Positions 1 through 34,970 of a stretch of DNA of 64,000 bases are shown here, one piece after another. This DNA is from Streptomyces sp. NBC_01260 (GTDB taxonomy: Bacteria; Actinomycetota; Actinomycetes; Streptomycetales; Streptomycetaceae): the NCBI RefSeq assembly GCF_036226405.1, contig NZ_CP108464.1, positions 4,836,001-4,900,000 of the forward strand, given 5' to 3'. Under the pieces are notes generated by a model. The model saw only the letters and a list, made by a program, of their open reading frames with translations. It had not been told where the DNA came from and did no database searches. Made by a program: the position numbers and the translations under genes. The number at the start of each line of letters is the position of its first letter. Positions within the stretch are counted from its first letter, which is position 1.

Positions 1-1
1 C

Positions 2-2670
2 GGTGAGCTGAGCGCTCTCCTGGCCGGCCGCGGTGATCAGCTGCCCGAGCCGCTGCCCTTCCGCAACTTCGTGGCGCAGGCCCGCCTCGGTGTGGCGCGC
101 GAGGAACACGAGCGCTACTTCGCAGAGCTGCTCGGCGACGTGGAGGAGACGACGGCGCCGTACGGGATGCTGGACGTTCGCGGCGACACGAGTGGTGCTC
201 AGCGGGCGCGACGGTACGTCGACGGTGAACTCGCGGCTCGGGTACGGGAGACGGCCCGTTCGCGCGGCGTGAGCGTGGCCACGGTGTTCCACCTTGCGTG
301 GGCGCGGGTACTTGCGGCGGTCAGCGGCCGGGACGACGTGGTCTTCGGAACGGTCCTCTTTGGACGGATGAACGCCGGAGCGGGTGCCGACCGGGTGCCG
401 GGACTGTTTCTCAACACGCTGCCGGTGCGGGTACACGTCGACTCGACCGGCGCAGACGAGGCGCTGTCGGGGGTCCGGGAGCAGTTGGCCGAGTTGCTGT
501 TGCACGAGCACGCGCCGCTGGCGCTGGCTCAGCAGGCCAGCGGGGTGCAGGGAGACAGCCCGCTGTTCACCTCGATCTTCAACTACCGACACAGCCAGAC
601 GGCTGGACAGGCAGCTGCCCAGAGAGCGGACACCGGGCTCGAGGGCATCAGGACCGTACTGACAAGGGAGGCGAGCAACTATCCCGTCAGCGTGTCGGTC
701 GACGACCACGGCACCGGATTCGGCCTGAGCGTCAACGCGATCGGTCTGGCCGAGTCGGAACAGATGTGCGGATTGCTGCACACGTGCATGGAGAACCTGG
801 TCACCGCCCTGGAGGACGCGCCGACGACTCGGATGTCGGCGGTGGAGATCCTCGAAACCGGTGAGCGGAACCAGCTCCTGGCGGAGTGGAACGACACGGC
901 GGTCGAGGTGGCGGATATGACGCTGCCGGAGCTGTTCGCCGCGCAGGTGGCGCGAACCCCTGACGCGGTGGCGGTGGTTTCGCAGGGCGTGGAGGTCTCG
1001 TACGCGGAGCTCGACGCGCGTGCGAACCGGCTGGCCCGGCACATGCTGGGACAGGGTGTGGCACCGGAGTCCTTGGTCGGGGTGTGCCTGGAGCGCGGCA
1101 TCGACATGGTGGTGGCCCTGCTGGGTGTCCTGAAGGCGGGAGGCGTGTGCCTTCCGCTCGACCCGGAGTATCCGGCGGATCGCAACGCGTACATGCTGGA
1201 CGACGCGGCACCGGACGCGGTGCTGGCATCGGTGGCCACGGCGTCGCTGCTGCCGCGCTCCGTGGCGCCGGTGGTCCTCGACTCGCCGGAAACGGTGCAG
1301 GCGCTTGCCGCCCTGTCGCCGGACACGGCCGCCCCGGGTGAATGGGCCGGCCCGCTGCCCGCGAACTCCGCGTATGTGATCTACACGTCGGGGTCGACCG
1401 GCCGTCCCAAGGGAGTGGCCGCGCGGCACGAAGGCCTCAGCAACCTGTACGCCTTCCACCGCACCCGAGTGATGCCGCAAGGGCCGGACCGCATGCGGAT
1501 GGCGTTGACGGCCTCGTTCTCCTTCGACACCTCGTGGGAGGGCCTGCTGTGGATGGTGGCGGGACACGAGCTGCATGTCATCAGCGACGAAGAGCGCCGT
1601 GACGCAACGGCTCTGGTCCGGCACATCGAGGCCCGAGAGATCAATGTCATCAACGTGACGCCCACGCACGCCGAGCAACTTGTCGCGGAAGGGCTCCTGG
1701 ACACACCTGAGTCGGTCCTCCAACTCGTGATGCTGGGGGGCGAGGCGCTCGGCGGGCCGCTGTGGGACCGGGTGCGGCAGGCCGGGGGCGTTCAGGTCCT
1801 CAACCTGTACGGCCCGACCGAATGCACTGTGGACACACTCTGGTTCGACGCGGAAGGAAGTGAACGGCCCTTGGTGGGCGGGCCGCTGGCCAACGCGCGG
1901 GTGTACGCGCTGGACGGGGAACTGCGGCCGGTGCCCGCCGGCACTACAGGCGAGTTGTACGTGGCGGGTGCGGGGCTGGCCCGCGGCTATATACGCCGGT
2001 CGGCTCTGACGGCTGAGCGTTTTGTGGCGTGCCCGTTCGAGCCCGGTACGCGGATGTACCGGACGGGTGACCTGGTGCGCTGGGACCGGGAAGGCCGTCT
2101 GGAGTACCTGGGGCGCGCGGACGACCAGGTCAAGATCCGTGGCTTCCGGATCGAGCCGGGCGAGATCCAGGCTGTGCTGGGCGACCATCCGCAGCTGAAC
2201 CAGGCCGCGGTCATCGCGCGTGACCACAGCACGGGGGACAAGCGGCTGGTTGCCTATGTCGTCCCGGCCGAGCCGGATGCCGCGCCAGCCGAACTGGCTT
2301 CGGAAGTAAGGCAGTTTGCCGCTGAGCGTCTGCCGCAGTACATGGTGCCCTCGGCCGTGGTCGTGCTTGATGAGCTGCCGCTTACGGTGAACGGGAAGCT
2401 CGACCGCAACGCCCTTCCCGCTCCGCAGTACGCCTCGGGCGCCGGGCGCGGACCTGCCACCGCACAGGAGGAGATCCTCTGTGGGGCGTTCGCCCAGGTG
2501 CTCGGCGTGGACAGCGTCGGGGTGGATGACGACTTCTTCGCGCTCGGCGGCCATTCGCTGCTGGCGATGCGGCTCGTGGGCCGGGTGCGCGCGGTGCTGG
2601 GCGTGGAGTTGCCGCTGAGGGCGTTGTTCGATACACCGACGCCGGCCGGAGTGGCCGCACGGCTGGACAC
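2..2670 (+). other. NRPS module 1 (partial dual C - A - PCP), substrate unassigned
   Basis: The first 870 bases are the 3' half of a dual-type C domain, recognised because they match the complete dual domains of the next protein (FGRMNAG, FNYRHS). The A domain spans about 917-2420, with the core FDTSWEG. Pocket residues by eye are D-T-W-N-M-G-L-V-D, which I cannot assign. The PCP spans about 2460-2670, with the phosphopantetheine serine at 2555-2557. A dual C here implies that the residue loaded by the missing upstream module is D. Confidence 0.8.
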
Positions 2671-5600
2671 GGTGGGAACGGCCCGCCCCGAACTGGTACC
2701 CATGGTGCGTCCGGAGCGGATCCCGCTGTCGTACGCGCAGCGCCGGCTGTGGTTCTTCGGCGAGCTGGAGGGGCCGAGTGCGACCTACAACATCCCACTG
2801 GTGCTGCGACTGTCCGGCCGACTGGACCGAACAGCACTTGAAAGCGCTCTGCGGGACGTGATCGGGCGCCACGAGGTGCTCAGGACCATATTCCCGGCGG
2901 TCGCCGGTGAGCCGTATCAGCGGATGCTTCCGGTCGAGGAATCCGGCTTCGAGCTGCAGGTCGTAGACGTGGCCCCGGAGGAATTGGCCGAAGCAGTGGC
3001 CGAAGGGGCGACTCGCTCGTTCGATCTGGGTGCTGAAATCCCCTTGAGGGCAGCCCTGTTCGCTGTGAGTCCTGACGACCACGCCCTCTTGGTGGTGGTC
3101 CATCACATCGCCGGGGACGGCTGGTCGAGCGGTCCGCTGGCACGAGACCTGTCGGCGGCGTACTCGGCCCGTTGCTTGGGCGCGGCTCCCGAGTGGACCC
3201 CGTTGCCGGTGCAGTACGCGGACTACGCGCTGTGGCAGCGAGAGCTGTTGGGCGCGGAGGACACCTCCGACGGGGTCATGTCGGAGCAGGTCGCGTACTG
3301 GCGGGAAGCGCTCGTAGGAGCCCCCGAAGAGCTGACGCTTCCCGCCGACCGGCCACGGCCGACGGTGTCGACCCATCGGGGACACCGCATCGCGCTGGAC
3401 GTACCGGCCGAGGTGCATGAGCGGCTCGTGGAGGTGGCGCGCGAGCGCGGAGTGACCGTGTTCATGCTGCTGCAGGCCGGACTGGCGGTGACGCTCAACC
3501 GGATCGGAGCAGGAACGGACATCCCGATCGGGTCCCCGATCGCGGGACGTACCGACAAGGCACTGGACGATCTGGTCGGCTTCTTCGTCAACAACCTCGT
3601 GCTGCGTATCGACGTGTCGGGGGATCCGACGTTCGCCGAGCTGCTGGAGCAGGTTCGGGAAGCGGGCTTGCTGGCGTTCGCGAACCAGGATGTGCCGTTC
3701 GAGCGCCTGGTGGAGGAGCTGGCCCCGGCCCGCTCGCTCGCCAGGCACCCGCTGTTCCAGGTCATGCTGACGGTGCAGAACACGGGTGCGGCGGAGGTGA
3801 GCCTGCCCGGTCTCGAGATTGCCGGGCTGCCTGCCGCGGGAGCGGCGGCGAAGTTCGACCTCGAAGTCTCTGTGGGGGAGAAGTTCGACTCACAGGGAGC
3901 ACCGGCAGGTCTGCGGGGATCGCTGATCGCGGCGGCGGACCTCTTCGAGGAGAGGTCCGCCCAGCGCATCGCCGGTCACTGGGCGAAGGTCCTGGAAGCC
4001 CTGGCCATCGATCCGCAGACGCGGATGTCGGCGGTGGAAATCCTCGACACCGGCGAGCGGAACCAGCTCCTGGCGGAGTGGAACGACACGGCGGCCGACG
4101 TGCCGGACGCGACGCTGTCCGAGCTGTTCGCGGCCCAGGTGGCCCAGAACCCCGAAGCGGTCGCCGTTGTCTTTGAGGGCGCAGAGGTCTCGTATGCGGA
4201 ACTCGACGCCCGCGCAAACCGGCTGGCCCACCACCTTGTGGACCGGGGAGCCGGCCCTGAGTCGATCGTCGCCGTATGCATGGAACGCGGTGTCGACCTG
4301 GTGGTCGCGCTGCTGGGCGTGCTGAAGGCGGGAAGCGCCTATCTTCCCGTGGATCCGGAGTACCCGGCGGATCGGATCGCCTTCACGTTGGCCGATGCCG
4401 GTGCGGTCTGCATGGTGACTACGGCGGCGTTCGACGAAGCGTTGCCCGAGCACGTGGCGCGGGTCGTGGTGGACGCCCCGGCGACCGCGGAGGACCTCGA
4501 CTCCAGGCCGGAAACTGCCCCCGAGGCATCGACGACATCAAGCAATCCGGCGTACGTGATCTACACATCGGGCTCGACAGGCCGTCCGAAGGGCGCGGTG
4601 GTCCCGCACGCGGGCATCGTCAATCGGCTCGCGTGGATGCAGTCCCGGTACAGCCTGACTCCGGGCGAACGTGTGCTGCAGAAGACACCGTTTGGTTTCG
4701 ACGTGTCGGTGTGGGAGTTTTTCTGGCCACTGCTGAGCGGCGCCGCCCTCGTCCTTGCCCGGCCGGGCGAGCACCGGGACCCCGTCTACATCGCGGAACT
4801 CGTACGCGAGCAGTGGGTGACGACTGCCCATTTCGTGCCCTCGATGCTGGACGCATTCCTGTCCGAACCCTCGGCGAGCGAGTGCGTGACCCTGCGGCGG
4901 GTGCTCTGCTCGGGCGAGGCGCTGCCCCTGCCGACTCAGACGCGCTTCTTCGACCTCTACGACGGAGTGGAACTCCACAACCTGTACGGCCCCACCGAGG
5001 CGGCGGTCGACGTGACGGCGTGGCACTGCCGGCCCGAGCAGACGGACGGATCCGTACCGATCGGCACGCCGATAGCCAACACCCAGGTGTACGTCCTTGA
5101 CGCTTCGCTGAATCCGGCCCCGGTCGGGGTGGGCGGCGAACTGTACCTGGCAGGGGTGCAGTTGGCGCGCGGATATGTCGGCGACAGCGCACGGACGGCA
5201 GAGCGGTTCGTGGCGTCCCCGTTCGTGCCCGGCGAGCGGATGTACCGCACGGGCGACATCGCGAGGTGGAACGCCGACGGTCACCTGGAGTACCTCGGGC
5301 GCGAGGACGAGCAGGTGAAGATCCGGGGATTCCGCGTGGAACTCGGCGAGATCCAGGCCGTGATCGCCATGCATCGGGCAGTCACGCAAGTCACCGTGTC
5401 CGTTCGCGAGGACATACGGGGGGACAAGCGTCTGGTCGCGTACGTCGTTCCGTCGGACGACGCTGAAACCGGTGCGCTGCCTGACGCCGTGCGTGCCCAC
5501 GCGGCCGGACTGCTGCCGCAGTACATGGTCCCGTCGGCCGTCGTCGTCCTGGACGAGCTGCCGCTGACGGTGAACGGAAAGCTGGATCGCAAGGCCCTTC

Positions 5601-8600
5601 CTGCCCCGGAGTTCGCCTCGGGCGCGGGGCGCGGACCAGCCACCGCACAGGAGGAGATTCTCTGCGGCGCCTTCGCGCAGGTACTGGGGCTTGCCTCGGT
5701 CAGCGTGGAGGACGACTTCTTCGCGCTCGGCGGCCATTCGCTTCTGGCGACCCGGCTGGCGAGCCGGATCCGCGCGTTGCTCGGCGTGGAGCTGCCGCTG
5801 CGGTCGCTGTTCGAGGCTCCCACGCCGGCGGGCGTCGCTGCCCGTCTCAGCGGAGAGCAGATGGCACGCCCCGTGCTGCTGCCGATGGCACGTCCGGAAC
5901 AGATCCCGCTGTCGTACGCGCAACGCCGACTGTGGATCATCGGTCAGCTGGAGGGGCCGAGCCCCACCTACAACATCTCCGTGGCGCTGCGCCTCACCGG
6001 TGAGCTCGACCGGAAGGCGCTCGAGGGCGCGTTGCGTGATGTCATCGGCAGGCATGAGGCGCTCCGCACGGTGTTCGGAGTGGCTGACGACGGTGAGCCC
6101 TACCAGCGGATTCTTCCGGTCGAGGAGACCGGGTTCGAGCTGGCCTTCACTGAGGCGGACTCGGACGCGCTGACGGACAAGCTGTCTAACGCCACGCGGT
6201 ACGCGTTCGATCTTAGTGCCGAGATCCCCTTGCGGGCATCGCTCTTCGCGGTGGCACCGACGGAGCACGTACTACTTCTGACCGTGCATCACATTGCCAC
6301 GGACGGCTGGTCGAACGGTCCGTTGGCGCGGGATCTGTCGGCTGCGTATGAGGCGCGGTGTGCGGGTGGTGCTCCGGAGTGGTCTGCGTTGCCGGTGCAG
6401 TACGCGGATTACGCGCTGTGGCAGAGGGAGCTGCTGGGTTCGGACGATGATCCGGAGAGTGTGCTGTCCCAGCAGGTGGCGTACTGGCGCGATGAACTCA
6501 CCGGTATCCCTGACGAGTTGATGCTGCCGCACGACCGCCCCCGTCCGGCTGTCCCATCGCACCAGGGCCACCGGGTGGCCCTTGACGTGTCCGCCGAACT
6601 GCACGGCGAGCTGCTGGCGTTGGCGCGCGAGCGCGGCGTGACTCTGTTCATGCTGATGCAGGCCGGTCTGGCCGTGACGCTGTCGCGGTTGGGCGCGGGT
6701 TCTGACGTGCCGATCGGTGCGGCGATCGCAGGTCGCACGGACGAGGCACTTGACGAGCTGGTCGGGTGTTTCCTTAACACTCTCGTGATACGGAGCGAAT
6801 TGTCCGGCAATCCGACGTTCGCTGAACTTCTGGAGCAGGTGCGAGAGACAGGGCTGCGAGCCTTCGCACATCAGGATGTGCCGTTCGAGCGGTTGGTGGA
6901 GGAGCTGGCTCCGGCTCGCTCTCTGTCCCGTCATCCGCTCTTCCAGGTCATCCTCACTTTCCAGGACACCGCCTCGATGGAAGGAGCCGACGCGAGTGCT
7001 GCCGCCGGGCTTTCCGGGCTTCAGGTGAGCGGCATGCCAGCGGGCAAGGCGGGGGCGAAGTTCGACTTGGCCTTGGCCGTAGGGGAGGTCTTCGACGAGC
7101 AGGCCGCTCCGGCGGGGCTGCGTGGTGCTTTGATCGCGGCGGCGGACCTCTTCGACGTCGAGACCGCTGAGCGGCTCATGGGTTATCTGGTTCGGGTGCT
7201 ATCGACGGTGGTCGAGGATTCGTCGATACCCGTGAGTGACGTTGATGTGCTCGGTGGGGGTGAGCGTCGTCGGGTTCTGACTGGGTGGAATGACACGGGT
7301 GTTGAGGCGTCGGGTGTGTTGGTTCCTGGGTTGTTTGAGGCTCAGGTGGCGCGGACGCCGGGCGCGGTGGCTGTGGTCTCGGATGGTGTGTCGGTTTCGT
7401 TTGCGGAGTTGGATGGTCGGGCGAATCGGCTGGCGCATTACCTGAGGTCCCAGGGGATCGGCGGCGAGTCGGTGGTCGGTCTGTGTCTGCCGCGTGGTGT
7501 CGAGACGATCGCCGGGATTTTGGCGGTGTGGAAGGCGGGCGCCGGGTATCTGCCGATCGATCCCGCGCAGCCGGCGGAGCGGATCGCGTTCATGATGCGG
7601 GACAGCCGTGCCGTACTGACCTTGACGACCGAGGAGATCCTGGACGATCTCCCGGCGGGTCGTCAGCGGCTGGTCGCGGTGGATGGTGCGCTGGTGGCGA
7701 TGCAGCTCGCCGCCGCCCCGGCAACGGTTCCTGAAGTGGCGCTCTCTGGCGGTCAGGTGGCGTATGTGATCTATACGTCGGGTTCGACCGGGCGCCCCAA
7801 GGGTGTTGCGGTGACGCACGGTGCGTTGGCGAACTACGTCAGCTCGGTTCCGGCTCGTGTCGGGTTGGGCGGGTCGGGGGGCCGGTATGCGGTGCTGCAG
7901 GCGCAGGCCACCGATCTGGGTAACACGGTGGTGTTCGCGAGCCTGACCACCGGTGGCGAGCTGCACATCCTCCAGGAAGAGGCGGTCACCGACCCGGTGG
8001 CAGTCGCCTCGTACCTGGAAGCACAGCGGATCGACTTCCTGAAGGCGGTGCCCTCGCATGTGGCCGCGCTGGGAGCGGCAGCCGCGCTGCCCGCCAAGGC
8101 GCTGGTGCTCGGTGGTGAGGCGGCCTCGCCGGAGCTGGTCGGTGAGCTGCTGGCGGCTGCGGGCGAGTGCGGCGTGTTCAACCATTACGGTCCGACGGAG
8201 GCGACGATCGGTGTCGCCACGACACGCCTGACTGCGGAGATGGTCGCGTCCGGGGTGATTCCTGTCGGGTCCCCGGTGGCCAACACCCAGCTGTACGTGC
8301 TCAACAGCGCTCTGCAGCCGGTGGCGCCGGGTGTCGTCGGTGAGCTGTACATTGCAGGCGGACAGCTGGCGCGCGGTTACGTGGGTCAGCCGGGTTTGAC
8401 GTCAGAGCGTTTCGTCGCCTGTCCGTTCGTCCCGGGTGTGCGCATGTACCGGACGGGGGACCGTGCCCGTTGGACGTCGGACGGGCAGGTGGTGTTCGCC
8501 GGGCGTGCGGATGACCAAGTGAAGGTCCGCGGCTTCCGCATCGAGCTGGGCGAGGTCGAGTCGGCCTTGTCGATGCACCCGCAGCTGGCGCAGGTGGCCG

Positions 8601-11600: not shown

Positions 11601-12343
11601 GCCAGGCCGGTCTGACCGCCGAGCGCTTCAACGCCTGCCCCTTCATTCCCGGCGTTCGCATGTACCGCACGGGGGACCTGGCCCGCTGGACAATGGACGG
11701 CCAGGTGGTGTTCGCCGGCCGAGCTGACGAGCAGGTGAAGGTCCGCGGCTTCCGTGTGGAGCCGGGCGAGGTGGAGTCGGCTCTGGCCGCGCACCCGCAG
11801 GTCACGCAGACAGCAGTAGTCGCCAGAGAGGACATCCCAGGGGACGTCCGTCTGATTGCGTACGCAGTCGCCTCAGGAGGCGGCATTGGATTCTCCGAGG
11901 AACTGCGGGAGTTCGTCGCCAAGAGGCTCCCTGAGCACATGGTTCCCTCGGCGATCGTCGTCCTGGACGCGTTGCCGTTGACCGGCAACGGGAAATTGGA
12001 CCGCAGGGCCCTGCCTGCCCCCGACTACGCGGCGGCAGCCTCACGGGCGAGCCGGAAGCCGTCCACCCCCCAGGAGGGGGTTCTCTGCTTGGCGTTCGCA
12101 ACGGTCCTCGGCCTGGACGCGGTCGGCGTCGAGGACAACTTCTTCAAGTTGGGCGGGCACTCGCTCCTGGCGACCAGGTTGGTCAGTGAGTTGAGGGCTG
12201 AGTCGGGTGTGGAGCTGCCTATCCGGGCGGTCTTCCAAACGCCGACACCGGCCGGACTCGCCGCCTGGCTCGCAGATCAAGGCAGTCATGAACAGAAAGC
12301 TAGGCCCGCGCTGCGGCCGATGCGTAAGCAGGAGGAGTTCTGA
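2..12343 (+). CDS. NRPS subunit, four A-PCP modules, 5' end outside window
   Basis: Cytosolic nonribosomal peptide synthetase that activates and condenses amino acids on carrier-protein thioesters. The frame is open from base 2, so the start lies upstream; the GTG at 71 is internal. Domain order seen: C-terminal half of a dual-type C, then A-PCP, C-A-PCP, C-A-PCP, C-A-PCP. Each A domain has [11 protein letters not shown] and NGKLDR; each PCP has GGHSL. The complete C domains carry HHxxxDG. Pocket residues read by eye give unknown, Ser, Asp, Asp for the four A domains. The protein ends about 30 residues after the last PCP, with no E or TE domain, and its stop overlaps the ATG of the next NRPS by one base. 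The chain is therefore passed to that protein in trans. An AGGAGG at 12330-12335, inside this gene, serves the downstream start. Confidence 0.97.
2700..5850 (+). other. NRPS module 2 (C-A-PCP), predicted Ser
   Basis: The C domain starts near [11 protein letters not shown], with HHIAGDG from 3101. The A domain has FDVSVWEFF and pocket D-V-W-H-L-S-L-V-D, the classic serine code (EntF reads the same except for one hydrophobic position). The PCP serine is at 5738-5740. The C domain is LCL-type by its HHxxxDG and its lack of the dual N-terminal motif. Confidence 0.88.
5880..9060 (+). other. NRPS module 3 (C-A-PCP), predicted Asp
   Basis: The C domain has HHIATDG at 6287. The A core has TDLGNT, and the pocket reads D-L-T-K-V-G-H-I-G, the standard Asp code. 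The A domain is nearly identical to that of module 9 and very close to module 4, pointing to duplication within the cluster. The PCP contains [10 protein letters not shown]. Confidence 0.88.
9100..12265 (+). other. NRPS module 4 (C-A-PCP), predicted Asp
   Basis: The C domain has HHIASDG near 9503. The A pocket again reads D-L-T-K-V-G-H-I-G (Asp). The PCP ([10 protein letters not shown] near 12154) is the last domain of this subunit and should dock with the N-terminal C domain of the next protein. I could not identify a recognisable docking helix in the short tail. Confidence 0.87.
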
Positions 12344-21400: not shown

Positions 21401-24400
21401 GCTTCCGGATCGAGCCGGGGGAGATCGCGGAGGTGCTCGCCGGACATCCGGAGGTGGCGCAAGCCGTGGTGCTCCCCGTCGAAGACTCGGCCGGGGAGCA
21501 GCAGTTGATCGCCTATGCCGTGCCGTCCGGCCAGGACGCGGACACCGGCTCGCTCGTCGGGGAACTGCGAGGCTTCGCCACCGGCAAGCTGCCGGGGTAC
21601 ATGGTGCCCGCGGCCATCGTCCTCATCGACGCTGTGCCGTTGACGTCGAACGGGAAGCTCGACCGGGCGGCGCTGCCCGCACCGGACTTCGCCGCGGCGG
21701 CCGGCGCGGGCCGGGCGCCCGCCACCGTGCAGGAGGAGATCATCTGCGGCGTGTTCGCAGAGGTGCTCGGACTGCCCGAAGTGGGAGTCGACGACGGCTT
21801 CTTCGCGCTGGGCGGGCATTCGCTGCTTGCGGTGTCGTTGGTGGAGCGGCTGCGTGGCCGGGGTGTGTCGGTGTCGGTGCGTGCGTTGTTCCAGACGCCC
21901 ACACCGGCTGGACTCGCGGCCGCGGCAGGGCCTGAGCACGTAGTGGTCCCGCAGAACGGGATACCTGACGGCGCGCAGGAGATCACCCCCGAGATGCTGC
22001 CGCTGGTCGACCTCACGGCCGAGGAGATCGCGCGTGTCGTCGCGGGGGTGGAGGGCGGTGCGGCCAACATCGCGGACGTGTACCCGCTCGCCCCGCTCCA
22101 GGAGGGCTTCCTCTTCCACCACCTGCTGGCGGACGGCGGAGATGACACCTACGCCATCCCGACGGTGCTCGGGTTCGACTCGCGGGATCGGCTGGACGCT
22201 CTCCTCGAAGCATTGCAGCGGGTGGTCGCGCGGCACGACATCTACCGCACTGCGATCGTGTGGGAAGGCCTGCGCGAGCCGGCCCAGGTGGTGGTGCGTC
22301 AGGCGGTGCTGCCGATCCAGGAGGTCGTGCTCGACTGCCATGGCACCGCACCCGCACAGCAGTTGATGGCGGCAGCAGGCGTCGGCATGGACTTGAGCCG
22401 CGCCCCCTTGATCGACGTACACACGGCTGCCGAACCGAACGGCGACGGGTGGCTGGCACTGATTCGCATCCACCACCTGGTGCAGGACCACACCACGCAG
22501 GAAGCGCTGCTGGGAGAGCTGCGTGCGTTCCTCTCCGGGCAGGGCGATTCACTGTCCGAGCCGCTGCCGTTCCGCAACTTCGTGGCGCAGGCCCGCCTTG
22601 GCGTCTCGCGCGAGGAGCACGAGCGCTACTTCGCCGAGCTCCTCGGCGACGTGGAGGAGACAACCGCTCCCTATGGTCTGCTCGACGTCCTCAGCGGCGG
22701 AGCGGACGCCGAGCGGGCACTGCTCCTCCTGGATGGAGAACTGGCACGACAGGTACGTCAGTTGGCGAGCAGGCTCGGTGTGAGCGCGGCCACCGTCTTC
22801 CACTTGGCGTGGGCGCGAGTACTGGCCACGGTGAGCGGCCGGGACGACGTGGTGTTCGGCACGGTGCTCTTCGGCCGCATGAACGCCGGAGAGGGCGCGG
22901 ACCGGGTGCAAGGCCCCTTCCTCAACACCCTGCCGGTGCGTGTACGGGTCGACACGACCGGTGTCGGGGAGTCTCTGTCCGGGTTGCGGGAGCAGTTGGC
23001 CGAGCTGTTGGTGCATGAGCATGCGCCGTTGGCGCTGGCGCAGCAGGCCAGTGGTGTGCAGGGTGACAGCCCGTTGTTCACCTCGATCTTCAACTACCGG
23101 CACCGCCACAGTGCGACCGACGGAGCGGACGAGGCGCGTGGCACCGAATCTCAAGGCATCCGGACCGTCTTCACGCGGGACATCACCAACTACCCGGTGT
23201 CTGTAGCCGTGGACGACACCACGGCCGGATTCGTCCTGAAGGTCGGCGCGGTAGCCCCCGTCGACCCGGAGCAGATGTGCAAGCTGCTGTACACCTGCGT
23301 AGAGAACCTTGTGGTCGCCCTGGAGCAGGCTCCGGAGACCGGGATGTCTGCGGTGGACGTCCTCGACGCGGATGAGCGGGATCAGGTCCTGACGGAGTGG
23401 AACGATACCGAGGCCGACATTGAGACCGCACTGCTACCGGAGTTGTTTGCGGGGCAGGTGGTGCGTTCGGCGGATGCGGTTGCTGTGGTGTCGGGTGGTG
23501 TGGGGGTTTCGTTTGCGGAGTTGGATGGTCGGGCGAGTCGGCTGGCGCATTATCTGAGGTCTCAGGGTGTGGGTGCGCAGTCGGTGGTGGGTTTGTGTCT
23601 GCCGCGTGGTGTGGTGATGGTCGAGGCGATTTTGGGGGTGTGGCGTGCGGGGGCGGCTTATGTGCCGTTGGATCCGGAGTATCCGGCGGACCGGTTGGCG
23701 TTCATGCTTGCTGACAGTCGTGCGTCGGTTCTGATCGGTACCGGTGAGGTGCTTGATGATCTGCCGGTGGGCCGTATCCGTACGCTGGATCTGGATGATC
23801 CGATGGTGGTCGGTGCGCTGGCCGTTCAGCCGACGACGGCACCTGAACTCGCTCTCCACCGCGACGAGCTCGCCTACGTGATGTACACCTCCGGATCCAC
23901 AGGACGCCCTAAGGGCGTGCAGGTCACGCACGGAGCGATGGCGAACCTGGCGGTGACCGCGGGGCCGAACCTCGGTGCGGTCGCCGGCGCTCGTCTCCTG
24001 CAGTTCGCTTCGTTCAGTTTCGACGCGTCTGTGCTGGACGTGGCGGCGACGCTTGCTGCGGGTGCCACATTGGTGGTGGCCAACGAGGCCGAGCGCGCGG
24101 ATACCGGCCTCCTGGTCAGCATGATCCGCGAGCAGGGGGTGCAGGCGGTCAACGTGCCGCCGCCGCTGCTCGGCGTGCTCGACCCGACGGCACTGCCGGA
24201 CGTGACCACTGTGCAGGTCGGCGCCGAGGCGATTCCCGTGGAGCAGGCCGCACGGTGGAGCTCCGGTCGACGCCTGGTGCATGCCTATGGCCCGACCGAG
24301 TCGACCGTGATGGTCACCGGGGGCTTCGTGGACGGCTCGGGACCGGTGGTCCCCATGGGCTCTCCGATCGCCAACACCAAGGTCTTCGTACTGGACGGCT

Positions 24401-27400
24401 CGCTCGGCCCGGTGCCGGTCGGCGTCGCGGGCGAGGTATACATCGCCGGTGACCAGCTGGCCCGTGGCTACGTCGGCCGCAGCGCGATGACAGCCGAGCG
24501 GTTCGTGGCCTGCCCGTATAGCGGTTCGGGCGACCGGATGTACCGCACGGGTGACCTGGCGCGGTGGACCGATGACGGTCAGCTGGTGTTCGCGGGTCGA
24601 TCCGACGAACAGGTGAAGGTCCGCGGCTTCCGCGTGGAGCCAGGCGAAGTCTCTGTCGCACTAGCGGCATCCCCTGAGGTCGCTCAGGTCGCGGTCATTG
24701 CCCGGGAGGATGTGCCGGGCGACAAGCGACTGGTCGCCTACGTGGTCCCGGAAGACGAGGAGACGACTGAAGAACTGCCCTCTCTCGTCAGGGAGTTCGC
24801 CGCCGACCGGCTGCCCGAACACATGGTGCCGTCGGCCGTCGTCGTCCTGGACGAGCTGCCGTTGACGGTGAACGGCAAACTGAACCGCAAGGCCCTGCCC
24901 GCGCCGCACTATGCAACGGCGTCGTCGGGCACGGGCCGAGTCGCCTCCACCCCGCAGGAAGAGATCATTTGCGGGGCCTTCGCGCTGGTTCTCGGCTTGG
25001 AGAGCGTCGGCATGGACGACGACTTCTTCGAGTTGGGAGGGCACTCGCTGCTCGCGACTCGTCTTGTGAGCCGCCTGAGAGCGGTTCTGGGAATGGAGCT
25101 GCCGATCAGAGCGCTGTTCGACGAGCCGACGCCGACCGCGGTCGCCGCGCACCTGGGCAGCGAGGAAACGACCCGAACCATGCTGGCGCCGAAGGAGCGT
25201 CCGGAGCGGATCCCGCTGTCGTACGCGCAGCAGCGGCTTTGGTTCATCGGGCAGCTGGAAGGCCCGAGCTCCACCTACAACATCCCGACGGCACTGCGTC
25301 TGACCGGCAGGCTGGACCAGGACGCGCTGGGCGCGGCTCTGCGGGACATGGTCGAGCGGCACGAGGTGCTGCGCACCGTCTACGCGGTGGCTGCCGACGG
25401 CGAGCCCTACCAGCAGATCCTGGACCCGTCGGAACTGTCGTGGGACCTGCAGGTGGTGGACCTCACCGACTCCGACGGTCCGGTGGATCCGACGGACGCC
25501 GTCGCGCAGGCAACCGGGTACGCCTTCGACCTTGCCGCCGAGGTGCCGATCCGTGCATCGCTGATCGCGGTGGGGCCGGACGAGCACGTCCTGGTGGTCG
25601 TGGTGCACCACATCGCGAGCGACGGCTGGTCGACGGGCCCGTTGGCGCGGGATCTGTCGGCTGCCTACTCGGCGCGATTGGAGGGGCAGGCTCCGGAGTG
25701 GTCTGCGTTGCCGGTTCAGTACGCGGACTATGCGCTGTGGCAGAGGGAGCTGCTGGGTTCGGACGATGATCCGGAGAGTGTGCTGTCCCAGCAGGTGGCG
25801 TACTGGCGTGACGAGCTCGCGGATGTTCCGGATGAGTTGTCACTGCCGCACGACCGTCCTCGTCCGGCAGTCCCGTCGCACCAGGGGCACACCGTGAAGC
25901 TGGACGTCCCGGCTGACGTGCATGGCCGACTCCTGAACCTGGCGCGTGAGCGCGGCGTGACCCCGTTCATGCTGATGCAGGCCGGTCTGGCCGTAACCCT
26001 CTCCAGGATGGGGGCTGGTACGGACGTCCCGATCGGGACCGCGATCGCGGGACGCACCGACGAGTCGCTGGACAACCTGGTCGGATGCTTCCTCAACACC
26101 CTCGTGATTCGAAGCGACTTGTCCGCCAACCCGACGTTCGGCGAACTGTTGCAGCAGGTCCGCGGAACGGGCCTGCGCGCGTTCGCACACCAGGATGTGC
26201 CGTTCGAGCGCCTGGTGGAGGAGCTGGCACCGACCCGCTCGCTGGCGCGCCAGCCGCTCTTCCAGGTCATGCTCACGTTCCAGGACACCCTCGCGATGGC
26301 CAGCACGGATGGTGAGGCCGCGCGTGGCCTGGCCGGGCTGCAGGCGAGTGGGATGCCGATGGGCCAGGCAGGGGCGAAGTTCGACCTCTTCGTGCAGGTG
26401 GGGGAGAAGTTCGACGAGCAGGGTGTCCCTGCGGGCATAGGCGGAATGGTCGTCGGCGCGGCGGATCTCTTCGAGGAATCCACGGTCGAGTGGGCTGTTG
26501 AATGCCTGGTTCGTGTGTTGTCGACGGTGGTCGAGGATCCGTCGATACCCGTGAGTGACGTTGATGTGCTCGGTGAGGGTGAGCGTCGTCGGGTTCTGAC
26601 TGGGTGGAATGACACGGGTGTTGAGGCGTCGGGTCTTTTGACGCCTGGGTTGTTTGAGGCTCAGGTGGCGCGGACGCCGGGCGCGGTGGCGGTGGTCTCG
26701 GATGGTGTCGGGGTTTCGTTTGCGGAGTTGGATGGTCGGGCGAATCGGCTGGCGCATTACCTGAGGTCGCAGGGGATCGGCGGCGAGTCGGTGGTCGGTC
26801 TGTGTCTGCCGCGTGGCGTGGAGACCATCGCCGGGATTTTGGCGGTGTGGAAGGCCGGGGCGGGGTATCTGCCGATCGATCCCGCGCAGCCGGCGGAGCG
26901 GATCGCGTTCATGATGCGTGACAGCCGTGCGGTGTTGACGCTGACGACCGAGGAGATTCTGGATGATCTCCCGGCGGGTCGTCAGCGGCTGGTGGCGGTG
27001 GACGGGACGCTGGTCCAGATGCAGCTGGCGTCTGCTGCGGTGACGGCACCGGACGTCACCGTTGCTGCGGGTCAGTTGGCGTATGTGATCTATACGTCGG
27101 GTTCGACGGGCCGTCCCAAGGGTGTTGCGGTGACGCACGGTGCGTTGGCGAACTACGTCAGCTCGGTTCCGGCTCGTGTCGGATTGGGCGGGTCGGGGGG
27201 CCGGTATGCGGTGCTGCAGGCGCAGGCAACCGACCTGGGCAACACCGTGGTGTTCGCGAGCCTGACCACCGGTGGCGAGCTGCACATCCTCGCGGAGGAG
27301 GCGGTCACCGACCCGGTGGCGGTCGCCTCCTACCTGGCGGAGCAGCGGATCGACTTCCTGAAGGCGGTGCCCTCGCATGTGGCCGCGCTGGGAGCCGCAG

Positions 27401-30400
27401 CGGCGCTGCCGGCGAAGGCGCTGGTGCTGGGCGGTGAGGCGGCCTCGCCGGAGTTGGTCGGTGAGCTGCTGGCGGCGGCGGGCGAGCGGGAGGTGTTCAA
27501 CCATTACGGTCCGACGGAGGCGACGATCGGTGTCGCGACGACACGTCTGACACCGGAGATGGTCGCGTCCGGGGTGGTGCCGGTGGGTACCCCGGTGGCC
27601 AACACTCAGCTCTACGTGCTCGACAGCGCTCTGCAGCCGGTGGCGCCGGGTGTGGTGGGTGACCTGTACATCGCGGGTGCTCAGCTGGCACGGGGCTACG
27701 TGGGGCAGCCAGGCCTGACGGCCGAGCGCTTCATCGCCTGCCCCTTCACCATGGGCGTCCGTATGTACCGGACGGGGGACCGCGCCCGCTGGACGTCGGA
27801 CGGGCAGGTGGTCTTCACGGGCCGAGCCGACGACCAGGTGAAGGTCCGCGGCTTCCGCATCGAGCTGGGCGAGGTGGAATCGGCGCTGGCCGCGCACCCG
27901 CAGCTTGCCCAGGTGGCCGTCACCGTTCGCGAGGACATCCCCGGCGATGTCCGCCTGGTCGCTTACGTCGTCGCCGATGACGAGGACACCGAGACCTCGG
28001 AACTCGCCACGTCGGTACGTGAGTTCGCAGCATCTCGCCTGCCGGAGCACATGGTTCCCTCGGCGGTCGTGGTTCTGGACGCTCTGCCGTTGACGGGCAA
28101 CGGAAAGCTGGACCGCAAGGCCCTGCCCGCCCCCGACTACGCGGCCGCAGCATCGAGCTCGGGCCGAGGCCCGGCGACGGTGCAGGAAGAGATCATCTGC
28201 TCCGGCTTCGCAGAGGTCCTGGGCCTGCCTTCCGTGGCGGTCGACGACGACTTCTTCGCGCTCGGCGGGCACTCGCTGCTCGCCGTGTCGTTGGTGGAGC
28301 AGCTGCGGGCGCGCGGCGTATCCATCTCGGTCCGGGCACTGTTCCAGACGCCGACGCCGGAGGAGCTGGCCACGGTGGCCGCTCCAGGACAAGTGGAGGT
28401 ACCGGCCCGACGGATTCCGGACGGTGCCACCGCGATCACACCTGACATGTTGCCGCTGGTCGACCTTTCGGCCGAAGAGGTTGATCAGGTCGTCGCCCAG
28501 GTGTCAGGGGGTGCGATCAACACGCTGGACGTGTACCCGCTCGCACCGCTGCAGGAAGGCATCTTCTTCCACTACCTGCTGCAGGCCGAGAGTGGCGCGG
28601 ATGTCTACGCCGCCCCCAGGGTCATCGGATTCGACTCGCGGGACAGGCTGGACGCCTTCCTAAAGGCATTGCAGCGCGTGGTCGACCGGCACGACATCTA
28701 CCGCACGTCGATCGTCTGGGAAGGCCTGCGCGAGCCGGTACAGGTCGTCGCGCGCGAAGTGGTGCTGCCGGTCGAGGAGGTCACTCTCGACCCCCAGGGT
28801 CCTGATGTGATCGAGCAGTTGCTGGCGGCGTCCGCGGCGAGGATGGACCTGGTTCGTGCCCCGCTGATCCGGGCGCATGTCACAGCCGAGCCCGGCAGTG
28901 GCCGGTGGCTTGCGCTGCTGCGCATCCACCACCTCGTGCAGGACCACACCACGCAGGATGTGCTCCTGGGTGAGCTGCGCGCGTTCCTGACGGGACGGGA
29001 GCACACACTGCCCGAGCCGCTGCCGTTCCGTGACTTCGTCGCACAGTCCAGGCTTGGTGTGCCGCGCGAGGAGCACGAGCAGTACTTCGCCGAGCTCCTC
29101 GGTGACGTGGAGGAGACCACGGCACCGTACGGACTGCTGGACGTCCATGGCGACGGCAGCGGCGTTGTGCGCGCCCACTTGTCGGTGGAGGACGAAGTCA
29201 GCGTCCGGGTACGTGAGCTGGCACGCTCCCTCGGGGTGAGTGCCGCCACCGTGTTCCACCTCGCGTGGGCGCGAGTGCTCTCCGCGATCAGCGGTCGTGA
29301 CGACGTCGTGTTCGGAACGGTCCTGTTCGGGCGTATGAACGCTGGAGCGGGCGCGGACCGGGTGCCCGGCCTGTTCCTCAACACGCTTCCTGTGCGTGTG
29401 CGGGTCGACTCGACCGGCGTACGCGAGACGCTGGCGGGGCTGAGGGAGCAGTTGGCAGATCTGCTGGTGCACGAGCACGCGCCCTTGGCGCTGGCTCAGC
29501 AGGCGAGCGGAGTGCCGGGCGACAGCCCGCTGTTCACGTCGATCTTCAACTACCGGCACCGCCAGCGGGTGGCTCCTGAGCCGGCCCAGGGGAGCGGGCC
29601 CCGTTCGCAAGGCATCAAGACGGTGTTCACACGGGATGCCACCAACTATCCCGTGGGTGTGGCCGTCGACGATTCCGAGACCGGGTTCGCTCTGACGGTC
29701 GATGCCGTGGTGTCGGTCGACGCGGAGCAGGTGTGCCGACTGCTGCACACATGCCTGGAGAACCTGGTGGCTGCTCTGGAGGACGCCCCGGAGACACGTG
29801 TGTCGGCGGTGGACGTCCTCGGCGACAGCGAGCGGGACCGGCTCGTGAGTGAGTGGAACGACACGGCGACGTCGGATGTCGTGGCCGCGACGGTGCCCGA
29901 CCTGTTCGCGGTCCAGTTGGCACGGACCCCGGACGCGGTGGCGGTAGTGGCCGGAGGCACTGAGGTGTCGTACGCCGAGCTCGACGCTCGTGCCAACCGG
30001 CTGGCTAGGTACTTGGTCCGTCGGGGCATTGGTCCGGAGTCTTTGGTCGGGGTGTGCCTCGAGAGAGGGATCCAGCTGCAAGTGGCGCTGCTGGCCGTGC
30101 TGAAGGCGGGGGGCGCGTATGTGCCGCTGGATCCCGAGCACCCGGCGGAGCGAATCAGCTACGTCGTTCAGGACGCCGGCGTCGGGGTCGTGCTGACCTC
30201 CGAGGCGCTCGACAAGGTGGTGCCCGCGGAGGTGTCGCGGGTGGTGCTCGACGATGTGGCGGTAGCCGCGGAGCTGGCAGCCTTCGACGCTGCGCCGCTG
30301 ACCGGTGATGAGCGGGGCGGGCTGCGGCCGCAGCACCCGGCGTACGTGATCTATACGTCGGGTTCGACGGGCCGCCCCAAGGGTGTGCTTGTCTCGCACG

Positions 30401-32382
30401 TGGGCGCGGCGAGCCTGGTGGCAGGTCATGTGCGATACCTGGGCGTGGGCTCCGGGGCTCGGGTGGCGCAGTTCGCGTCCGCGGCCTTCGACACCTTCGG
30501 CTGGGAGTGGATGATGGCCCTGCTGTCGGGGGCAGCCCTGGTGGTGGTGCCTGCTGACCGGCGCCTCGGCGCTGCTCTGCCGGAGTACTTGACCGAGGAA
30601 GGAGTGACACACGCGACGCTGCCGCCCGCAGTCCTCGCCACCCTCGATGAGGGATCGATCAGTGAGGAGACCGTGCTGGTGGTGGCGGGAGAGGCGTGCC
30701 CGCCCGAGGTGATGGCCCGCTGGGCGCAGGGCCGGGCGTTGTTCAACTCTTACGGCCCGACGGAGACCACGGTCGATGCGACGCTGTGGCGCTGTGACGC
30801 CGATGCAGGGCAGGTCGCCATCGGTTCACCAGTGGTGAACACCCAGGTGTACGTACTGGACGAGAATCTGGCGCCGACACCGGTGGGCGTCGCCGGTGAG
30901 CTGTACGTCGCGGGTGCGGGGCTGGCGCGTGGCTACGTGGGGCGTGCGGGCTTGACCGCCGAGCGGTTCGTGGCGGACCCGTTCGCTGGGGACGGCTCAC
31001 GGCTCTATCGGACCGGGGACCGGGCGCGATGGACGCCGGACGGTCAACTGGTCTTCGCGGGCAGGACGGACGATCAGGTGAAGATCCGTGGCTTCCGGAT
31101 CGAGCCGGGCGAGATCGAGGCGGTGCTCGCCATGCAGGCACAGCTGAGCCAGGCCTCGGTCATCGCACGTGAGGACGCCCCGGGAGACGTGCGCCTGGTC
31201 GCCTACGTCGTTCCGTCCGACCGGGACGTCGAGCCTGGCGTGCTGGCCGGTGCTGTACGGGAGTTCGCGGCCGAATGGCTGCCTCAGTACATGGTGCCGT
31301 CCGCCGTGGTCGTCCTGGACGCGCTGCCGTTGACGGTGAACGGCAAGTTGGACCGTCGAGCCCTGCCGGCGCCGCAGCACACTGCCGGGCCCGCTGGTGA
31401 ACGTTCGGGCAGCCGCGGCCCCGCCGGCGTGCTGGAAGAGTCCGTGTGCGAGGCATTCGCCCAGGTGCTCGGGATTCCGTCGGTCGGGGTGGACGACGAC
31501 TTCTTCGCACTGGGCGGGCATTCCTTGCTCGCGGTGTCGCTGATGGAGCTTCTGCGGACCAGGGGAGTCTCCGTGACCATGCGGGACCTGATCATGAACC
31601 CGACACCGGCGCGGCTGATGAGCACGCTGAACCTGTCGTCCGTCCAGGACGCGCTCGGCGGACTCCTGCCGATCCGGACAGGTGGCACGAAGCCCGCCTT
31701 CTTCTTCGTCCACCCAGGAGGCGGACTGAGTTGGTGCTACCTGCCGTTTGCCCGGTACATCCCGGAGGACTATCCGCTGTACGGCCTCCAGGCCCAAGGG
31801 CTCGACGGAACGGCCGAGTTCGTGGGCTCCGTCAAGGACATGGCCGCGGAGTACGTGCGTCAACTTCGCTCCGTGCAGGAGTCCGGGCCCTACCACCTGG
31901 TGGGCTGGTCCTTCGGCGGAACTCCGGCGCACGAGATCGCGGTTCAACTGCGGGCGGAGGGCGAGCAGGTGTCCTTGATCCTCATGGATGCCTACCCGCC
32001 GATGGCAACCGGCAGCTCCGATGTCCGTTCCGGTGACGCACAGCCCGGTGACGACGCCGGACTGGCGGACAGGATCCGTGCCGAGCTGGGGCACCTGCTC
32101 GGTGGCTTCTCGGACGAGGAGCTCAAGCTCATGGCGCGTGCGTACCACAACAACGCGGCGATCAAGGATGAGCACGAGTTCGGTCGATTCGATGGGGACG
32201 CACTGCTCCTCGTCGCAGAGGAGGGCAAGCCGGCAGGTATCTCGCACACTGCTCCGTGGGAGCCCTTCATCGAACGCCGGATCTCCGTGGTCTGCCTGCC
32301 CTGCGAGCACTCCAACATGGTCATGCCCGACATGTTGGCGATGGCATGGGAGGCCATCTCGGATTGGCTGCGCCGAGACTAG
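12343..32382 (+). CDS. NRPS subunit, six modules plus thioesterase
   Basis: A 6679-residue nonribosomal peptide synthetase that finishes and releases the peptide. Domain order: C-A-PCP, dualC-A-PCP, C-A-PCP, dualC-A-PCP, C-A-PCP, dualC-A-PCP-TE. The start is the ATG at 12343, which overlaps the previous stop (TGATG) with AGGAGG 8 bases upstream. Pockets by eye give unknown, Asn, arylglycine-like, arylglycine-like, Asp, aromatic. The dual C domains sit before modules 6, 8 and 10, so residues 5, 7 and 9 are inferred to be D. The first C domain has HHIASDA instead of HHxxxDG. The TE has GWSFGG. Blocks of modules 6 and 8 are identical at DNA level, a sign of recent internal recombination. A strong hairpin follows the stop. 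Confidence 0.97.
15540..18750 (+). other. NRPS module 6 (dual C-A-PCP), predicted Asn
   Basis: The dual-type C begins with a YPLASLQEG motif. Its epimerisation-type N-terminal motif is degenerate (HYLLQADSD instead of HHLxxxxGD), and the central motif is HHLVQDH. The A core is FDLTVTS, and the pocket D-L-T-K-V-G-E-V-G is a standard Asn code. The PCP has [10 protein letters not shown]. Bases 17002-17465 are identical to part of module 8. A CmlA-type hydroxylase encoded in the cluster could act on this carrier-bound Asn (inference). Confidence 0.85.
18790..21930 (+). other. NRPS module 7 (C-A-PCP), arylglycine-like A domain
   Basis: The C domain has HHIAGDG near 19183. The A core is FDASVLD, and the pocket reads D-A-L-S-L-G-T-V-M. 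It resembles module 8 and no common proteinogenic code that I know. Because the cluster encodes complete Hpg and Dpg supply, an arylglycine (Dpg more likely) is inferred. The PCP is the [10 protein letters not shown] type and precedes a dual C, so a D residue is expected. Confidence 0.6.
21960..25160 (+). other. NRPS module 8 (dual C-A-PCP), arylglycine-like A domain
   Basis: The dual C has the intact N-terminal motif HHLLADGGD at 22117-22143 (consensus HHI/LxxxxGD) plus HHLVQDH. The A core is FDASVLD, and the pocket D-A-L-N-Q-G-A-V-M is related to module 7. The N-terminal part of A (23437-23900) is base-for-base the same as in module 6, so the two A domains share a swapped N-subdomain. The PCP is the LLATRL type. 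Confidence 0.6.
25200..28370 (+). other. NRPS module 9 (C-A-PCP), predicted Asp
   Basis: The C domain has HHIASDG near 25606. The A pocket D-L-T-K-V-G-H-I-G gives Asp. The module is closely related to module 3 across C-A, including long near-identical DNA runs. The PCP is of the [10 protein letters not shown] type and feeds a dual C, so D-Asp is inferred. Confidence 0.86.
28420..31640 (+). other. NRPS module 10 (dual C-A-PCP), aromatic-like A domain
   Basis: The dual C has a degenerate N-terminal motif, HYLLQAESG. The A core is FDTFGWEW, and the pocket D-T-W-T-V-A-S-V-D partly resembles Phe/Trp codes (GrsA Phe reads D-A-W-T-I-A-A-I-C). An aromatic residue is a tentative call. The PCP is followed directly by the thioesterase. 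Confidence 0.6.
31660..32379 (+). other. Type I thioesterase domain of the terminal module
   Basis: An alpha/beta hydrolase release domain. It starts around FFFVHPGGG; the nucleophile motif is GWSFGG, with its Ser codon near 31909. It should hydrolyse or cyclise the finished chain from PCP10. Sequence alone does not separate linear release from macrocyclisation. Confidence 0.9.
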
Positions 32383-34842: not shown

Positions 34843-34890
34843 GTAGCCACGTCAGCGAGTAGCCCTCCGGTTAGTCGCTGATGTGGCTAC
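34843..34890. terminator. Terminator hairpin after GntR-ABC operon
   Basis: Two 16-base arms (34843-34858 and 34875-34890) pair with one wobble around a 16-base loop, then TTGCCTTT. Confidence 0.8.
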
Positions 34891-34970
34891 TTGCCTTTGT
34901 AGCTGGTGAACGTGTCCCGGCGTGTGCGTATGCCTGCATTGTGTTCGCTTCCACGGGGGAGAGGTCTCTT

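Follow-up and report, generated by a model that had tools for sequence, protein, structure and literature searches.

The window considered here is a stretch of 64,000 nucleotides (G000:C1:4836001-4900000) from the 9.28-Mb genome of Streptomyces sp. NBC_01260, and it contains part of a nonribosomal peptide synthetase (NRPS) cluster in which three large frames, N1, N2 and N3, follow each other in tandem on the + strand and encode 5 + 5 + 6 modules (m1 to m16), each composed of a condensation (C), an adenylation (A) and a thiolation (T) domain. An initial annotation, made from the letters alone, had described the region formed by N3 as a whole and by N2 from a point some 430 bases into module 7, in which it counted ten visible modules; the upstream sequence adds six more (m1-m6), giving 16, and the inclusion of the upstream NRPS that it had advised yielded, from the flanking sequence, the whole three-gene system with a lipoinitiation-type C domain. 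The parts of the line are the following (positions without a prefix are those of the window):

L002:11-16276, + strand: N1, NRPS with m1-m5; 5421 aa when the longest frame is taken; the protein database gives 5416 aa
L002:16273 to window 12343, + strand: N2, NRPS with m6-m10; 5356 aa in the protein database
1..12343, + strand: 3' part of N2 within the window, nearly four modules; the gene starts upstream
1358-2432, + strand: A domain of m7 (N2), possibly basic, ornithine (Orn)-like
C from 2723 and A 4538-5615, + strand: m8 (N2), Ser
C from 5906 and A 7748-8822, + strand: m9 (N2), Asp
C from 9122, A 10964-12029 and T from 12149, + strand: m10 (N2), Asp
12343..32382, + strand: N3, complete terminal NRPS with thioesterase (TE), m11-m16; 6679 aa
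31570..32382, + strand: TE of N3 (GWSFG motif and PF00975 match)

The end of N1 and the start of N2 share four bases, and the final base of the N2 stop is also the first of N3; all three frames are open over their full length, with A, T and TE motifs present throughout the modules and an A domain in 16/16 of them. A whole-genome scan with PF00668 gave 17 C-domain matches in the cluster (4816056-4865844) and, one domain being split, 16 C domains, while Pfam detects four domains each of the C, A and T types in the window part of N2. With core motifs in its C-A-T modules and the terminal TE, the line has the make-up of a nonribosomal lipopeptide synthetase, though the C motifs of m5 (HQ) and m11 (HHIASDA) are altered. 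The C-terminal tails of N1 and N2 are of the same type (..LRPMRKQEE), and their last ~90 residues are 56-70% identical to the tails of chersina- and enduracidin-like NRPSs, among others. Rfam gave no match in the window. Taken together, we consider it likely that the three genes act as a single collinear line of 16 modules and make an acidic lipopeptide containing 4-hydroxyphenylglycine (Hpg) and 3,5-dihydroxyphenylglycine (Dpg).

The specificity codes were read from an alignment of the A domains to GrsA, the GrsA stretch being that of 1amu save one residue near its start. In N1 and N2 they are DGWLFGAVVK for m1 (hydrophobic), DLTKVGHIGK for each of m2, m3 and m4 (Asp), DVFSVAIVYK for m5 (perhaps small), DAYHLGLLCK for m6 (Hpg), DTENMGLVDK for m7 (perhaps basic), DVWHLSLVDK for m8 (Ser) and again DLTKVGHIGK for m9 and m10 (Asp); those of N3 are as follows:

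14170..15253, + strand: A core of m11, DTEDVGVVDK; basic, Orn-like, with low confidence
17425..18505, + strand: A core of m12, DLTKVGEVGK; Asn
20632..21691, + strand: A core of m13, DALSLGTVMK; Dpg by co-occurrence with DpgA
23860..24952, + strand: A core of m14, DALNQGAVMK; Hpg or Dpg
27067..28141, + strand: A core of m15, DLTKVGHIGK; Asp
30328..31381, + strand: A core of m16, DTWTVASVDK; aromatic, Trp-like

The Asp, Asn and Ser calls rest on well-known codes. The alignment prints DTW at both m7 and m11, with a one-residue gap before W-E, and DTE is the preferred reading, not a settled one, by analogy with the fengycin Orn code DMENLGLINK; from that likeness a basic residue may be supposed at both positions, as may a small one at m5 from the shape of its pocket, with no firm call in either case. 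The ten residues proposed initially (unassigned, Ser, Asp, Asp, unassigned, Asn, two arylglycine-like, Asp, aromatic) and the TE agree with the aligned codes of m7-m16. The three Asp that had been counted are right for the visible part (m9, m10, m15), the whole line having six Asp codes (m2, m3, m4, m9, m10, m15), and the peptide still appears acidic, as had been proposed, if less one-sidedly, given the two probably basic codes.

Some of these calls could be sharpened by comparison with other synthetases. Three protein searches with N1, N2 and N3 (the best 120 of 778, 985 and 979 scored proteins, respectively, candidates being 0.55 to 1.75 times as long as the query) yielded 180 different proteins, of which three are this genome's own, and 1102 A domains were compared. 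Among the proteins fetched, the A domain of m1 is nearest (68.7%) to domains coded DAWLLGAVC or DAWTVAAVC, and it shares 73% identity with a DAWTIAAVC domain of S. pseudovenezuelae GGS1, which makes a hydrophobic or aromatic residue 1 likely. The m6 code is one position off DIYHLGLLCK, an Hpg code according to its author's prediction (Table 7, PMC9113097), and it occurs at three modules of the Micromonospora chersina NRPS P0044, while the m16 code agrees at 7/10 positions with DGWAVASVCK, the Trp code of the calcium-dependent antibiotic CDA (Table 7, PMC9113097). Two A domains of P0080, coded DALSVGAVI, are the closest to that of m14 among the same proteins (74.4% and 72.3%), and the run Dpg-Hpg-Asp-m16-TE of P0080 aligns with m13-m16; Hpg is thus the more likely substrate of m14, rather than Dpg. 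Within the line itself, the A-T blocks of m3 and m15 have a common 1786-base stretch of 93.7% identity (L002:7871-9648 and window 26507-28283), with A cores 95.4% identical in DNA, and the remaining Asp A-core pairs are 80-90% identical, so that the Asp modules were probably copied within the assembly line.

The assignment of m13 to Dpg was approached through co-occurrence in 150 genomes of the genus, with cut-offs of E <= 1e-100 for DpgA and E <= 1e-110 for an A domain like that of m13. DpgA is found in 23/150 genomes and the m13-like domain in 19/150, with both in 15 (Fisher p = 9.3e-12; 14/18 and p = 4.8e-11 with the own genome removed). Codes were read in 30 loci, in which all 19 genomes are represented, though not every match is listed: DALS[LV]GTV[MI] appears in 15 genomes, 15/15 of them with DpgA and with HpgT at >= 60% identity; DALSVGAVI in two (G063, G134), with HpgT at >= 60% in both and DpgA in neither; and DAMCVGTVI in two (G036, G072), which lack DpgA and whose HpgT-like match reaches only 47-48%. 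This clean split of the codes with the presence of DpgA supports m13 as a Dpg module and DALS[LV]GTV[MI] as a Dpg code, and gives weaker support to DALSVGAVI as an Hpg code. The m13-like matches track HpgT even more tightly than DpgA (17/19, p = 8.9e-17), so co-occurrence by itself is no proof of Dpg over Hpg and the code split carries more weight. In the eight genomes that have DpgA and no m13-like match, Dpg would be loaded via another code or not loaded, and in a looser search with m14 the link to DpgA is weaker (18/61 vs 5/89, p = 1.2e-4). Other genomes of the genus also have giant NRPS clusters near DpgA; their frames reach 11,145 aa and they include many A domains of the Dpg type:

G133:C1:8722283-8807431: giant NRPS cluster near DpgA
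G122:C1:6969802-7031821: giant NRPS cluster near DpgA
G164:C2:238076-298984: giant NRPS cluster near DpgA
G125:C1:8336499-8380714: giant NRPS cluster near DpgA

As to stereochemistry, the 16-module line has no separate epimerisation (E) domain. Five C domains (m5, m7, m12, m14, m16) score 157-179 bits against PF00668 and the other eleven 210-322 (the larger piece being counted for the split domain), and these five begin PLA[PS]LQ[ED]G..FH. Reading the five low-scoring matches as E domains was rejected, as each precedes a full A-T and has motifs of the dual condensation/epimerisation (C/E) type, whose marks are HHxxxDH and an N-terminal HH[I/L]xxxxGD (PMC10531924). The C domain of m7 has both HH pairs (FHHLMGGEHGND and HHLVQDH), and that of m5 keeps the epimerisation motif (FHHLM) and carries HQMVRDH, with HQ for HH, in the condensation motif. 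The three dual-type domains of N3 are these:

15634..16944, + strand: C domain of m12, dual C/E type; HHLVQDH, FHYLL replaces FHHLL; residue 11 D if epimerisation works
22072..23385, + strand: C domain of m14, dual C/E type; both HH pairs, spacing exact, HHLVQDH; would make residue 13 D
28528..29844, + strand: C domain of m16, dual C/E type; HHLVQDH, FHYLL replaces FHHLL; residue 15 D if epimerisation works

Judging from these motifs, D residues are expected at positions 4, 6 and 13; at 11 and 15 they are doubtful, since the HY in the N-terminal motif of m12 and m16 weakens the call. The D residues of the initial annotation therefore keep their dual C/E-type domains, with an intact motif for residue 13 and an altered epimerisation motif for 11 and 15.

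If the C domain of m5, with its HQMVRDH, were unable to condense, the cluster could be silent or in partial decay, yielding either no product or an acyl-tetrapeptide cut short, and the presence of several transposase genes or pieces on the surrounding island would fit that picture. By script, 228 dual-type domains were collected from the 180 fetched proteins, 223 of them outside this genome. In the latter, the N-terminal pair is HH in 213, HS in 6, HY in 2, HN in 1 and HA in 1, and the second pair is HH in 211, HQ in 3 and unreadable by the pattern in 9. The three HQ domains belong to P0151, P0163 and P0164, exactly the proteins reading X-Asp-Asp-Asp-X, so that with N1 the coincidence is 4/4, and the HQ domain comes after the fourth A domain in N1, P0151 and P0163. 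Across 166 sequences totalling 1.48 Mb, 25 matches to the motif pattern have HH and a single one, that of N1, has HQ. Being present in all four X-Asp-Asp-Asp-X proteins, Gln in place of the second catalytic His is a conserved trait of the sub-group and no error; its retention in three relatives with the same start speaks for function and not for decay, as do the open NRPS frames, the A, T and TE motifs in all modules and the Dpg genes, which pass their models. A silent or decayed cluster is, in our view, rather unlikely. Among the papers listed for such motifs, none names an HQ variant in its title or at the start of its abstract.

Chain initiation would be assigned to the first C domain of N1, whose best solved relative is RzmA-Cs (2.6e-78; the 7C1 entries, PMC7804268), followed by C1 of the CDA synthetase (3.6e-51) and EntF (2.9e-47). 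The first module thus begins with a starter C domain of the lipoinitiation type, the aryl-loading type keeping some small chance. In RzmA, shortening the side chain of R148 down to Gly lengthens the acyl chain to C8 or C10 (PMC7804268), and the printed alignment places a Gly of N1 at that position, from which an acyl chain of C8 or longer is probably attached by the N1 starter. The possibility that has to be weighed at this point is a metallophore, with a starter C domain that loads 2,3-dihydroxybenzoate or a similar aryl acid and with iron chelated by residues of hydroxy-Asp: in NCBIfam the domain matches MxcG (1.5e-98) and EntF (2e-59), and there are six Asp codes plus a beta-hydroxylase. 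Among the solved relatives, however, both RzmA-Cs and CDA C1 rank before EntF, no family for dihydroxybenzoate or iron uptake was seen among the scanned proteins, and the neighbours are Hpg/Dpg genes, all of which makes a metallophore very unlikely.

Those neighbours lie downstream of N3, while an MbtH gene and a histidine kinase/response regulator pair lie upstream of the NRPS genes:

32921..34812, + strand: ATP-binding cassette (ABC) transporter ATPase and ABC-2 permease
34881..35942, + strand: possible membrane protein, with a weak GtrA-like match below cut-off
37212..39173, - strand: MsbA-like ABC exporter, below NCBIfam cut-offs
39262..40170, - strand: alpha/beta hydrolase, start uncertain
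40704..42287, + strand: CmlA-type diiron beta-hydroxylase (CmlA_N at 2.4e-83 and metallo-beta-lactamase fold)
42353..43441, + strand: HmaS by context; 4-hydroxyphenylpyruvate dioxygenase in NCBIfam, above cut-off
43438..45891, + strand: Hmo-HpgT fusion (FMN-dependent dehydrogenase and aminotransferase)
45985..47154, + strand: DpgA (NCBIfam, above cut-off)
47148..47876, + strand: DpgB (NCBIfam, above cut-off)
47876..49210, + strand: DpgC (NCBIfam, above cut-off)
49207..50013, + strand: DpgD (NCBIfam, above cut-off)
50138..51223, - strand: prephenate dehydrogenase, hydroxyphenylpyruvate supply

The Hpg/Dpg supply proposed initially is borne out by this set, in which DpgA-D accompany the HPPD-like gene (that is, the one named after 4-hydroxyphenylpyruvate dioxygenase), the Hmo-HpgT fusion and the prephenate dehydrogenase, the last three being predicted to complete the supply of Hpg. 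The beta-hydroxylase that had been noticed proved to be of the CmlA type, its protein being CmlA-like over the whole length (CmlA_N, CmlA structures). Relatives of this enzyme occur in 29 loci of named genomes (genera including Streptomyces, Peterkaempfera, Kitasatospora, Actinomadura, Streptosporangium and Catenulispora) with 66-90% identity; HmaS or Hmo-HpgT were seen in 24/29, the other five being L033 and L040 (both short), L037, L051 and L054. The A domains near the close hydroxylases are coded for Asn in two loci, for Asp together with DMFHIGLVW in three, and for other residues elsewhere. The hydroxylase stays at 85-90% identity in 26/29 loci (L030-L058) though the adjoining A-domain codes vary, and a constant hydroxylase amid varying codes suggests either one common substrate or a mobile sub-cluster.

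That spread of close hydroxylases over named genomes could also mean that the product is a peptide described before, with its gene cluster deposited outside the libraries compared; MIBiG and subscription papers were beyond that comparison. However, the same module order occurs in 0/177 other related NRPS proteins, the longest common run being 3 for N1 and N2 and 2 for N3, so the claim of the initial annotation that no known peptide has this order holds within the libraries compared. The closest relatives of N1, N2 and N3 are, among the matches listed, <= 66% identical. A search for papers on the six unusual codes returned none, and, going by titles and the starts of abstracts, the literature on Hpg/Dpg lipopeptides, ramoplanin-type and calcium-dependent types, with MIBiG and subscription journals outside its scope, gave no peptide of this composition. 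A described product is thus clearly unlikely.

The relatives that do exist are instructive in their own right. P0164 (Spirillospora sp. CA-294931), P0151 (Actinoallomurus iriomotensis) and P0163 (Actinomadura fulvescens) are 63-66% identical to N1 and, like it, read X-Asp-Asp-Asp-X followed by the HQ-variant dual domain; all three have an LRPMR-type tail, as in N1 and N2, and P0164 has a starter domain of the same type as N1 (55%). On the N3 side, P0080 (Streptomyces sp. NPDC051572) ends Dpg-Hpg-Asp-m16-TE, with 71% identity in the TE and 85-86% in the m16 A domain, and S. pseudovenezuelae GGS1 holds a sister line in pieces (TE 75%, m16 A domain 86%, first-module A domain 73%), one contig of which reads Ser-Gly-Asp-DGWAVASVD. 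All of them differ from the present line at many residues, none has the full order, and they come without a named product. A TE like that of N3 (E <= 1e-75) was found in 11/391 genomes from the order and 12/392 from the genus, the own genome being counted in both. The closest gene order is that of S. pseudovenezuelae GGS1, Streptomyces sp. AC555_RSS877 and S. bobili; the last (L032/L161), syntenic at first sight, was set aside because its TE comes after an Asn code, which makes it another product, and the Catenulispora contigs (G049, G043) were rejected as a match for their other module orders.

The whole cluster is carried on an island of ~97 kb (about -36785 to 60383 of the window) at a tRNA-Arg gene, and it is absent from that site in G507, a genome labelled as the same species and 84% complete. 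Two flanking genes, L001:723-1700 (SIS protein) and window 61869-62969, lie 100 kb apart here and 2.9 kb apart on one G507 contig. In this empty site (L164, G507:C493), bases 1-3057 and 3191-4266 correspond to the left flank and bases 4244-6876 to the right one, with 95-97% identity, and the word ACGAAGGCG stands at both island ends:

about L001:3206-3220 (within L001:3131-3220): island left end, at the 5' end of tRNA-Arg(CCT)
60375..60397: island right end; sequence onward as in the empty site of G507:C493

The 14-kb precursor block has no good match in G507, the best-scoring one being 67% over 329 bases. With dnaA at 4.10 Mb, the distance between the island and the likely origin is 0.7 Mb. 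No integrase was identified on the ~97-kb island, which contains several transposase families, some recognised by eye, plus a Mu-type transposase/TniB frame. The latter is a 932-aa frame (L001:12956-15751, - strand) with a Mu-type transposase C-terminal domain and a TniB-like AAA domain, which would be an unusual Tn7/Tn5053-like transposition gene, and it adjoins a 170-aa frame (L001:15748-16257, - strand) without NCBIfam match. The other features on the island are the following:

35985-36818: insertion sequence (IS)-type transposase gene or piece (Pfam)
51638-52455: IS-type transposase gene or piece (by eye)
58800-59641: IS-type transposase gene or piece (by eye)
54253-55542: DUF6545 membrane protein, near the island right end
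56033-56953: helix-turn-helix regulator, near the island right end

From the layout, domain order, codes, motifs and precursor genes a pathway may be proposed, in which residues, stereochemistry, acyl chain, cyclisation, hydroxylation site and activity are predictions. (1) The starter C domain of N1 would acylate residue 1, probably with a chain of C8 or longer. (2) The order of residues would then be hydrophobic-Asp-Asp-D-Asp-small-D-Hpg-basic-Ser-Asp-Asp-basic-Asn-D-Dpg-(Hpg/Dpg)-Asp-aromatic. (3) The dual C/E-type domains of m5, m7, m12, m14 and m16 would epimerise the residue of the preceding module and then condense; epimerisation at m12 and m16 may be idle, and bond formation after D-Asp4 would take place without the His that is Gln in m5, slowly, or by another route. 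(4) The CmlA-type diiron enzyme would beta-hydroxylate one carrier-bound residue, be it Asn, Asp or an arylglycine. (5) The TE of N3 would release the peptide, perhaps as a macrocycle, and (6) the ABC transporters would export it.

Several findings weigh against this collinear acidic lipopeptide line. No product is known for it, and residues 1, 5, 7 and 11 come without a firm code; the DLTKV-type code is common to Asp and Asn domains, DLTKVGHVGK occurring in both alike (PMC12283262). In the C domain of m5 the second His of HHxxxDH is missing, and this residue is described as crucial to catalysis (PMC10531924), although changing it to Val in RzmA-Cs lowered condensation and did not abolish it (PMC7804268); m11 has HHIASDA instead of HHxxxDG; and m12 and m16 read FHY for FHH, dual domains being sometimes idle (PMC10531924). 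On the precursor side, the HmaS gene is named HPPD by NCBIfam and the link between m13 and DpgA could partly reflect common membership of one cluster type. The N1 starter also resembles the aryl-loading MxcG and EntF, and neither a fatty acyl-AMP ligase (FAAL) nor a free acyl carrier protein (ACP) was seen among the scanned proteins, which did not include small frames singly; an acyl-CoA-ligase-like frame at 63076-65034 (by eye) lies outside the island.

If the reading is right, an unstudied scaffold would be added to the Hpg-type lipopeptides, among which are antibiotics active on the cell wall. One more orphan NRPS cluster is of limited interest in itself, such clusters being common, but this one adds a concrete 16-residue prediction usable for mass matching, a usable Dpg pocket code, DALS[LV]GTV[MI], backed by DpgA co-occurrence, and a His-to-Gln change conserved in a dual C/E domain, which makes the role of that His directly testable; it is also a 16-module NRPS carried whole on a tRNA-linked island and absent from a same-species genome. 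Going one step further, the line and its Spirillospora, Actinomadura and Actinoallomurus sisters might form a class of long, acidic lipopeptides not described so far, headed by Asp-Asp-D-Asp, in which the HQxxRDH domain would do something beyond plain condensation (bond formation may be aided by an Asp carboxylate, for example, or there may be an aspartimide/isoaspartyl step) and calcium or metal would possibly be bound without Asp-X-Asp-Gly; we offer this joint reading tentatively, as possible and on balance doubtful.

Among known systems, the glycopeptide antibiotics and feglymycin are Hpg/Dpg peptides, and their Hpg and Dpg are supplied by the same enzymes as here. The Dpg code of the former, DPYHGGTLCK, is unlike that of the present line, and instead of a heptapeptide line with X domain and Oxy P450s there are 16 modules, with no P450 family seen among the scanned proteins or among the domains listed for P0001, so that the line falls outside the glycopeptide type. 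The calcium-dependent antibiotics (daptomycin, CDA, friulimicin and malacidin groups) are acidic lipopeptides with several Asp, as predicted here, and CDA contains Hpg and has a Trp code resembling that of m16. In contrast to them, the 16 codes, with residues 1, 5, 7 and 11 not firm, include no Gly and no Asp-X-Asp-Gly run, FAAL and ACP were not seen among the scanned proteins, and the two terminal codes differ from those tabulated for that group (PMC9113097). Closest in design are the ramoplanin, enduracidin and chersinamycin lines, which are also long (17 vs 16 here) and Hpg-containing, with Hpg supply genes and, in the ramoplanin/enduracidin type, MbtH as here; proteins of this type (P0044, P0064) have dual C/E domains with HHLVQDH, and their C-terminal tails are related to those of N1 and N2. 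However, the present line has six Asp codes plus Dpg, no Thr code, and three NRPSs (5+5+6) instead of four. Enduracidin has 17 modules, an A-less module 8 in EndB and a stand-alone A-T protein, EndD (PMC13320435), for neither of which a counterpart was found here, and membership of the ramoplanin/enduracidin family was rejected on the 16 modules, the codes that differ from a 17-residue Hpg/allo-Thr/Orn order and the missing trans-A feature. The line is therefore of ramoplanin/enduracidin-like design outside that family, a real orphan variant of the Hpg/Dpg lipopeptide NRPSs, and it belongs to a sub-group whose marks are an Asp-Asp-Asp start and a dual domain with the Gln variant.

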